A stretch of DNA of 64,000 nucleotides from Leptolyngbya sp. CCY15150 (lineage in GTDB: Bacteria; Cyanobacteriota; Cyanobacteriia; RECH01), in contig NZ_JACSWB010000217.1 of NCBI RefSeq assembly GCF_016888135.1, positions 1 to 64,000 on the forward strand, in the 5' to 3' direction. Positions within the stretch are counted from its first letter, which is position 1. Every line of letters starts with the position of its first letter. Shown piece by piece: positions 53,838-55,947 of this stretch. A program made the translations under genes and the position numbers. The notes below the pieces were generated by a model. The model worked only from the letters and a program-made list of their open reading frames with translations, was not told where the DNA came from and searched no databases.

Positions 53838-55550
53838 CTAACTGGATGAGAGATAAGACCAAAACTGGGGACGCAGGGTCTGTCGTTTGGTGTTGGTAGC
53901 ACAGTGGACATTGCCGTGGTTGGCCTGGTAGGGAGTGTCATCTACAAACTCAACCCGAATTCTAGCCTGGGCTAAGCGCTGGCGAATCACCCGTTGAATG
54001 TAGTCTTCGCCATTCACCAGCGGCGCGTGGGGATCGCCTAGGATCAGCGTACCGTTGATAAAGACCGAGTTCACCGAATTCGACCAGAGCGTAGAAGCAT
54101 TGCGCAGCCCCGTAAACACCACCGGCAAGCGAATAATCCGATCCTCATCAATCTTCAGGTCTTGCTTCACCATACGGATGATGCGATCGAGCACAGAGCG
54201 CTGCATCCGTGAGCTGATCGAACGATAGGTTTCTAGGGCTTCATTAACGGTGATCGGCGGTTCCCCAATCCATTCCTCCCCTGCTCCCTGGGATCGCAAG
54301 TCCTGCAATAGTTTAATCCCGTCTTCCATGTCGTGAACCAGCACATAGGGCTGCCCCTCGGGAGCCGGAACGAAGCTAATCAGTTCATCTACATGCTTAA
54401 TCAGCAGCCAAGAGGTATCCAGCCATAGGGGCGTTTGCACCCCCTGCCGCCGCAGGAAATCTACGACCATCGGGTGCATCTCAACCCCGGTTTTGGTGTT
54501 GCGACCATAGTACGATCGCCCTAGGGGAAACCCCTCAATCGGCGGCGTCACCTCCAGATTGCCAAACCAGTCGGCCAGCTCATCCGCCACATTTAGATTG
54601 CGCGGCTCACCCACGGTGATATAACCAACATCGGGGCCCAGCAAGGTTTTGGGATATTGTTCATCGTCTCGATTGGCGCGTAGTACCACATGCATCCCTG
54701 GATGCCCTGGTATTTCCTGGTAGCCAATTTCCATCATGTCCTGGGTCCACATGTCCTGCCAGTTGTCGCTTTCATACTCATGCAGGGTCACGCCCAATCG
54801 CGGCAGAATGCGCTCTAGCTGCGATCGCATTCGGTCGTTCTCGTAGTAGCCTACGCCGATATAAAGATCCGTGGTGCGGGCAGAATTGGGCAGCATCAGC
54901 CAGGGAGCCACCCGCAAGGCGATCGCATCGGTGGCGATCGCTCGGCGTTTTTCATCCTGCAGACGCACGGTTAGACGCGTTAGCCCAGACCAATTAGTTT
55001 CAGCAAATTGCTTCGCCTCAATCCCCAGCGTTAGCACAATGGGATCATTCATCTGGGAGCTTCTAGGCGGAACCGTTAAGGGCACTGGACGACTGAGATC
55101 AAGGAACTGCCATTGATCGTCCACGCGCTGGAATAGGTTGACGGCCAGACGCGACTCCAGATTCACGTCAACCCACAACTCTGAGGAGGAGGATAGTTGC
55201 CCAGGCGTGAGGGTAATGGTGGCGATCGCTAAATCCTGTTCATCCGCCGGGCCATTCACCACCGTATCCGCTGCATCAGCGATGCCGTTGCCGTCATCAT
55301 CATCCACATTGGCCAAGATCAACATCCCAGACTCCCAAGTCCACAGATGGCGATCGCGCCTATCATCCCTAGACAGTCTGCCATCCCGATTGGTATCGCC
55401 CGCCACCACTAAGGGAGTATCTGGGCGCGCAAGACGAGCACTCAATGGACTCCAAACACAGGTATGCAGCAACACGAGCAGTAGTGCCAACATACCGCCC
55501 AGACAAGCCATGCGTATCCAGGGTCTTCGCCTTCGTCGTCGTCGCCGCAT
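53838..55550 (-). CDS. Protein-arginine deiminase (PAD) homologue, membrane-anchored
   Basis: A 570-residue protein. After an Arg-rich start and one membrane helix (about 14-34) comes a PAD middle domain with calcium-site acid clusters (GDTNRDGRLS, NVDDDDGNGI, ADEQDLA), then a PAD catalytic domain. The active-site residues of vertebrate PADs can all be aligned: D271 in TQDMME, H386 and D388 in KHVDELISFVP, and C550 in HGNVHCATN. It should convert peptidyl-arginine to citrulline, probably with calcium. The PAD N-domain is missing and the anchor takes its place, so it likely acts outside the cytoplasm. It stands alone. Composition matches the genome. Confidence 0.9.
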   Translation of the reverse strand: MRRRRRRRRPWIRMACLGGMLALLLVLLHTCVWSPLSARLARPDTPLVVAGDTNRDGRLSRDDRRDRHLWTWESGMLILANVDDDDGNGIADAADTVVNGPADEQDLAIATITLTPGQLSSSSELWVDVNLESRLAVNLFQRVDDQWQFLDLSRPVPLTVPPRSSQMNDPIVLTLGIEAKQFAETNWSGLTRLTVRLQDEKRRAIATDAIALRVAPWLMLPNSARTTDLYIGVGYYENDRMRSQLERILPRLGVTLHEYESDNWQDMWTQDMMEIGYQEIPGHPGMHVVLRANRDDEQYPKTLLGPDVGYITVGEPRNLNVADELADWFGNLEVTPPIEGFPLGRSYYGRNTKTGVEMHPMVVDFLRRQGVQTPLWLDTSWLLIKHVDELISFVPAPEGQPYVLVHDMEDGIKLLQDLRSQGAGEEWIGEPPITVNEALETYRSISSRMQRSVLDRIIRMVKQDLKIDEDRIIRLPVVFTGLRNASTLWSNSVNSVFINGTLILGDPHAPLVNGEDYIQRVIRQRLAQARIRVEFVDDTPYQANHGNVHCATNTKRQTLRPQFWSYLSSS

Positions 55551-55947
55551 CTCAATCCTTATATCCAGACGTTAGCATCGCCAAGCCAGCTCTTCATACT
55601 AGCCTGCCGTACTGACCGCAATCCATGGCAGGCTAAGCTAAACGGCGCTTCTCAGTATGAACATCTTGCCCGAGCTTGTCGATAACAGTGTCAATAGCTT
55701 TACTGGAAAAGCTTATTCTTTCAGTCAGAACTTAGCAGATCGGACAAGCTGCTAGTTGACATCCTTCTCGCTGCAAGCAGACGAGAATTCCTAAGACTCA
55801 CGACTTAGGATAAACGGAGATTTGGAGCATTGCCACTACATCTAGTGATCCCTAAGGGATAATGGCATAGATAACACCCTATCGTCCTCTCCTGATTGGC
55901 CTATCTCAAAACCCTTCATCCATGCGCCCATCCCAGCCCACAGAACG
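55551..55947. other. Divergent intergenic region
   Basis: About 400 bp upstream of both the PAD gene and the hydrolase gene at 55948. It is relatively AT-rich in the middle. No gene or defined motif seen. Confidence 0.4.

Follow-up and report, generated by a model that had tools for sequence, protein, structure and literature searches.

Peptidylarginine deiminases (PADs) belong, with the Porphyromonas enzyme PPAD and agmatine deiminase, to one superfamily of guanidino-modifying enzymes, and it has been proposed that the PADs of animals were acquired from a cyanobacterial branch. A deiminase mechanism in which a cysteine makes the attack is established for the PAD family (PMC13023937), and the PADI of Cyanothece, a relative in the other branch from the protein studied here, is active and calcium dependent (PMC8826395). 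Cummings et al. reported calcium sites 2 and 4 and residue D389 as exclusive to clade Ai when set against fungal and actinobacterial sequences (PMC8826395). The same authors already described outgroup PADIs, bacterial and cyanobacterial, that lack a PAD_N domain, so the branch treated below is known in outline though little studied; neither signal peptides nor transmembrane segments are mentioned in their text, and the calcium sites of the outgroup are not discussed on their own (PMC8826395). Our literature search found no paper on exported or planctomycete PADs, which is no proof of absence.

We analysed a window of 64,000 nucleotides from Leptolyngbya sp. CCY15150, this being the whole stretch of DNA under study, in which one gene encodes a PAD homologue. 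The gene is real and intact, and its product belongs to an exported two-domain branch of bacterial outgroup PADs and is not an animal-type PADI. The features used below are given in window coordinates, with residues numbered in the window protein.

53838..55550, minus strand: PAD-homologue gene, 570 aa, two-domain, predicted to be membrane-anchored (open reading frame and Pfam)
55556..55560, minus strand: AAGGA, Shine-Dalgarno-like, 5 bases 5' of the ATG (read by eye in the sequence)
55455..55521, minus strand: predicted transmembrane helix, about residues 10-32, behind an Arg-rich head (hydropathy and model)
54957..55415, minus strand: PAD middle domain, about residues 46-198 (Pfam PAD_M and fold overlay)
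53859..54938, minus strand: PAD catalytic domain, residues 205-564 (Pfam PF03068, 222.4 bits)
55362..55397, minus strand: EF-hand-like loop D52-D63 at the place of Ca6 (sequence and alignment)
55233..55310, minus strand: Ca3-Ca5 cluster, N81 to D106 (alignment)
54738..54740, minus strand: catalytic Asp271, equivalent to PAD4 D350 (alignment)
54666..54737, minus strand: M272-D295, the stretch expected to hold Ca2, with three of four ligands gone (M272, R291, A292; alignment)
54630..54632, minus strand: Asp307, equivalent to PAD2 D389 and PAD4 D388, the calcium-switch residue (alignment)
54387..54395, minus strand: catalytic His386 and Asp388, in HVDE (alignment)
53901..53903, minus strand: catalytic Cys550, in VHCATN (alignment)

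The reading frame runs from an ATG at 55550 to 53838 on the minus strand and encodes 570 residues with no internal stops; a promoter and terminator scan upstream returned a single weak promoter-like site, and shuffled sequences gave as many. It is the only PAD copy in the genome by PF03068 search. The Pfam scan matched PAD_C (PF03068) at residues 205-564 with 222.4 bits against a curated cut-off of 25 and PAD_M (PF08527) at residues 52-198 with 25.5 bits, barely above its cut-off of 24.8. PAD_N gave no match in the protein, where only about 45 residues lie ahead of PAD_M, and the agmatine and Porphyromonas-type family PF04371 was matched neither in the protein by Pfam scan nor in its genome by profile search. 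Credible phmmer matches in the PDB were PADs only, namely PAD1-4 and the inactive PAD6, with PAD4 the best at about 1e-55. The AlphaFold2 model, built on an alignment of 37 sequences, reached a pLDDT of 90.7 and a pTM of 0.87, and its best matches among solved structures were again all PADs (PAD4: Z 41.5, 2.1 Å over 500 residues). In most rows the overlay covers PAD4 residues from about 114 through 663; the protein accordingly has full M and C domains and lacks the N-domain. The original prediction of a complete bacterial PAD homologue in which a membrane helix replaces the N-domain is thus borne out, as is its separation from the agmatine and Porphyromonas-type deiminases.

Orthologues were found in three related genomes at 96, 90 and about 45% identity, the PAD being present in both genus-mates and one family-mate (G003). 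Among the three same-genus copies dN/dS was 0.08-0.18 (0.03 for the neighbouring gatA), and this purifying selection indicates a live gene and, with the orthologues, a reading frame that did not arise by chance. No PAD relatives were detected in the viral contigs and phage records searched, and the plasmids searched held only distant copies of 25-27% identity in Streptomyces and Embleya. Overall, the window PAD is a well-preserved and fairly ordinary member of a known family.

We then placed this protein among its relatives. Of 386 genomes surveyed from the phylum, 25 had PF03068. Their scores fell mainly into two heaps, one at 490-535 bits (proteins of about 670 aa, animal-like) and one at 190-240 bits (the window type); a single early-branching genome lay apart at 135 bits. 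Trees were made from 76 sequences (a quick tree, mostly from a named genome collection) and, with greater care, from 50; human PAD2 and PAD4 were the only animal sequences, no fungal sequence was included and the root was not inferred. Both gave the same main split, with support of 100/99 in the 50-sequence tree. On one side stand the animals, the animal-like cyanobacteria, Vibrio, Bowmanella and Paenibacillus, and Streptomyces with Myxococcota; on the other stand the window PAD, Planctomycetota, Eremiobacterota, Aminicenantes, Sumerlaeota and the exported Oscillatoriales PADs. The animal-like cyanobacterial proteins, which carry no export signal, are sister to the human PADs. The window family clusters with PADs of Planctomycetota and Eremiobacterota type (support 99/97) and not with the exported Oscillatoriales PADs; joining the two exported cyanobacterial sets was rejected (p 6e-4), in a test picked after the first tree and with long branches present. 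The Streptomyces sequence (L098) sits across the main split from the window PAD, on a long branch in a tree without fungal sequences.

These results bear on whether the window protein could be a clade Ai (animal-type) PADI of cyanobacteria that stands near the donor of the animal enzymes and has shed its N-domain. Its host phylum is that of the proposed donor, and it keeps Asp307 and the Ca4 set, which are Ai-exclusive relative to fungal and actinobacterial PADs (PMC8826395). Against this, besides the main split, forcing the window family into a clade with the animals and animal-like cyanobacteria, a hypothesis fixed beforehand by the original prediction, cost 214.6 log units and was rejected (p-AU 1.6e-5). 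Identity to human PAD4 is 28.6%, and to the animal-like cyanobacterial PADs 28%, while one of those animal-like PADIs reaches 48% with human PAD2; the animal-like type scores more than twice as high against PF03068, and Ca2 is lost in the window protein. Within our sampling the tree and AU test refute a clade Ai identity, and we regard it as extremely improbable. The copy had been thought informative on transfer from cyanobacteria to animals; lying outside the animal and animal-like clade, it bears on that question only as an outgroup. Two easily confused cyanobacterial PAD types are hereby set apart; for the question of how animal citrullination arose, only the three-domain type, which has no export signal, is of direct relevance.

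Two further observations concern the animal side of the split. The PADs of Vibrio, Bowmanella, Paenibacillus and Endobugula (L077, L088, L094, L097, L105, L108) adjoin the animal and animal-like cyanobacterial clade and keep Ca2 (as E-D-G-N in L105). Their middle-domain cluster is for the most part altered, and these PADs may be relevant to the origin of animal PADs. In the quick tree, a PAD from a Campylobacteraceae metagenome-assembled genome (L092) was placed next to the human PADs inside that clade, on a long branch and with support of 81; this may be an artefact or a contaminant.

Calcium ligands were assessed by alignment. The reference positions for the five PAD4 sites came from PMC13023937, and those for site 6 of PAD2 and for the switch residue came from PMC8826395 together with general knowledge. 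The expectation that the calcium ligands match those of vertebrate PADs held for the middle domain and failed at one catalytic-domain site. The Ca3-Ca5 ligands N81, D83, D85, D92, D95, D103 and D106 correspond to PAD4 N153, D155, D157, D165, D168, D176 and D179, and E178 corresponds to a further ligand of this cluster, PAD4 E252. The Ca1 set (Q270, E274, F329, L332, E333), the Ca4 set (D83, D85, D106) and the switch residue D307 are likewise kept, the genus-mate G002 having Asn at the last position, and the site 6 loop reads D52-x-N-x-D-G-x-L-x-x-x-D63. Ca2, which lies beside the active site, is lost through E351>M272, D369>R291 and S370>A292, leaving D295 alone. This loss is common to every sampled member of the branch, while the E-D-S-D/N pattern is kept in nearly all animal-like sequences. 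By its aligned residues the window's branch has an intermediate calcium pattern, mostly with the Ca4 set and the D389 equivalent and without Ca2, so that the middle-domain cluster, site 1 and the switch Asp occur in this outgroup without site 2. A PAD2-like calcium switch was considered and, given the missing site 2, judged unlikely.

The catalytic tetrad proved as predicted: D271, H386, D388 and C550 align with PAD4 D350, H471, D473 and C645, and the HVDE and VHCATN signatures are both intact. Trp268 and Arg294 are retained in the window PAD and in its genus- and family-mates. The equivalents of PAD4 R374 and R639, which we take to be substrate-contact residues, are changed, and this, with the loss of Ca2, counts against an active enzyme.

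Several cyanobacterial relatives lack catalytic residues. In one cyanobacterial family (f32), each of the 11 genomes with a PAD has Ser or Asp in place of the catalytic Cys, which is likewise lost in two members of the named collection, Okeania SIO3I5 and Oscillatoriales USR001. Several of these proteins have also lost His (to Gln or Asn) or the first Asp, and one subgroup is without the Ca3-Ca5 ligands. The PAD homologues of the Cys-less set (L017-L027, L036, L037) are long, and an export segment is present in most of them. Their open frames and dN/dS of 0.08-0.21 in the pairs tested suggest maintained pseudoenzymes, parallel to vertebrate PAD6, and they seem more surprising than the window PAD itself. 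Because these relatives keep the protein without the Cys, a non-enzymatic role can exist in the branch, and the window PAD might itself be a catalytically idle protein retained to bind or scaffold, which is what its Microcoleaceae-type relatives seem to be. The persistence of Cys-less relatives under purifying selection and the missing Ca2 would fit such a role. However, the Cys was the first loss in the idle lineages, whereas the window PAD and its genus- and family-mates keep all four catalytic residues, Ca1, Ca3-Ca5 and Trp268/Arg294, and we consider idleness improbable.

In place of the N-domain the protein has the sequence MRRRRRRRR followed by one helix (residues 10-32), the latter predicted by hydropathy and the AlphaFold2 model. 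A predicted arginine-modifying enzyme itself begins with eight Arg (residues 2-9, window 55524-55547, minus strand), on the predicted cytoplasmic side, and this run is retained in the genus-mates with small changes only. Judged from hydropathy and charge only, the PAD domain is probably extracytoplasmic and periplasm-facing: the Arg-rich head with a single helix, under the positive-inside rule, and the export signals of the branch would place the enzyme outside the cytoplasm. A hydropathy scan detected an N-terminal hydrophobic export segment in most members of the branch and none in the animal-like cyanobacterial PADs, although some start codons were set by rule and may be wrong. Several branch members carry a lipobox (LVGC in L041, VAAC in L042, ITSC in L060), and L028 has LGGC, read by eye. 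That such export signals are common suggests a function in the cell envelope. An amidase-signature enzyme, probably also a lipoprotein and truncated at the end of the contig, is encoded close to the lipoprotein PAD of an uncultured bacterium (L041:1832-5318).

The gene order at the PAD, with gatA and two alpha/beta hydrolases, is common to the genus; reading function from these neighbours was rejected, as they carry no guilt by association. A PAD-free genome of another cyanobacterial family (G020; L123, 114-3892) has the same order of alpha/beta hydrolase, gatA and second hydrolase, with a 598-bp gap at the place of the window PAD, in which neither a PAD relic nor an alignable insertion site was found. 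In Microcoleus and Oscillatoria (L031, L033, L038) an exported PAD lies near gatA and the same second hydrolase in the opposite, divergent orientation, which speaks against a simple acquisition. Despite the similar neighbours, these three PADs and the window PAD do not come together in the tree.

Neighbours in more distant relatives raise the reading that the enzyme acts on agmatine or free arginine for nitrogen salvage and, in relatives, feeds an AguB-type amidase. In G003 an equivalog-level AguB (N-carbamoylputrescine amidase; L111:6843-7730) lies directly 3' of the PAD and canonical AguA was not found, and in a Sumerlaeia metagenome-assembled genome an AguB-like nitrilase (L054:2652-3668) adjoins the PAD; the changed R374 and R639 positions would also suit a small substrate. 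However, the G003 contig ends just past aguB, so aguA may simply be missing, and the PAD is predicted to be exported while AguB has no evident signal. The fold and active site match protein deiminases. In the window genome AguA was not found and no AguB exceeded the curated cut-off, on which ground the pathway link drawn from G003 was rejected. We give the small-substrate reading little credence.

We therefore return to the reading we think probable, that the window PAD is a membrane-anchored, extracytoplasmic, calcium-dependent peptidylarginine deiminase of the exported outgroup branch. In the mechanism we propose, the Arg-rich N-terminus and single helix would anchor the protein in the membrane, its enzyme part lying outside the cytoplasm. 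Calcium would fill the Ca3-Ca5 cluster, the EF-hand-like Ca6 and Ca1, the last organising the cleft. The Cys550 thiol would attack the guanidinium carbon of a substrate arginine that Asp271 and Asp388 hold in place; His386 would serve as acid/base, and the reaction would release ammonia and yield citrulline. With Ca2 lost, the details of activation should not be the same as in animal PADs. The periplasm, likely calcium-rich, would keep the enzyme on as a largely standing activity, so that control would be by location and not by a calcium pulse. The likeliest substrates would be proteins rather than small molecules, namely arginine-rich exported or incoming proteins and peptides of the envelope, and one may speculate on a role in destroying arginine-rich peptides or in shifting the charge of envelope proteins. 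More tentatively, and with some doubt, envelope citrullination by anchored or lipoprotein PADs without Ca2, kept on by periplasmic calcium, might extend across the whole bacterial branch (cyanobacteria, Planctomycetota, Eremiobacterota, Aminicenantes and others). If so, bacterial protein citrullination would be widespread, old and extracytoplasmic.

Compared with known systems, the window PAD belongs to a different Pfam family (PF03068) from Porphyromonas PPAD and agmatine deiminase (PF04371). It shares the M and C fold and the catalytic tetrad with human PAD4 (PDB 3b1t, 1wd9) but differs in having a predicted membrane anchor and no N-domain, Ca2, R374 or R639. With the cyanoPADI of Cyanothece sp. 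PCC 8801 (clade Ai) it has in common the catalytic residues, Ca1, Ca3-Ca5 and the host phylum, whereas the Cyanothece type is a three-domain protein of about 670 aa with no export signal, an intact Ca2 and about 48% identity to human PAD2. The fungal and actinobacterial PADIs resemble it in their two domains, the absence of PAD_N and the loss of Ca2; unlike it, the Streptomyces PADI has Gly at D389, is without the Ca1 glutamates and falls, on a long branch, with Myxococcota across the main split. The outgroup PADIs of Cummings et al. 2021 (PMC8826395) share with it a divergent PAD_M with PAD_C and no PAD_N, the kept catalytic residues and a position outside the animal clade. In the window PAD the Ca4 set and the D389 equivalent are kept although Ca2 is lost, calcium sites that the paper does not consider separately for its outgroup.
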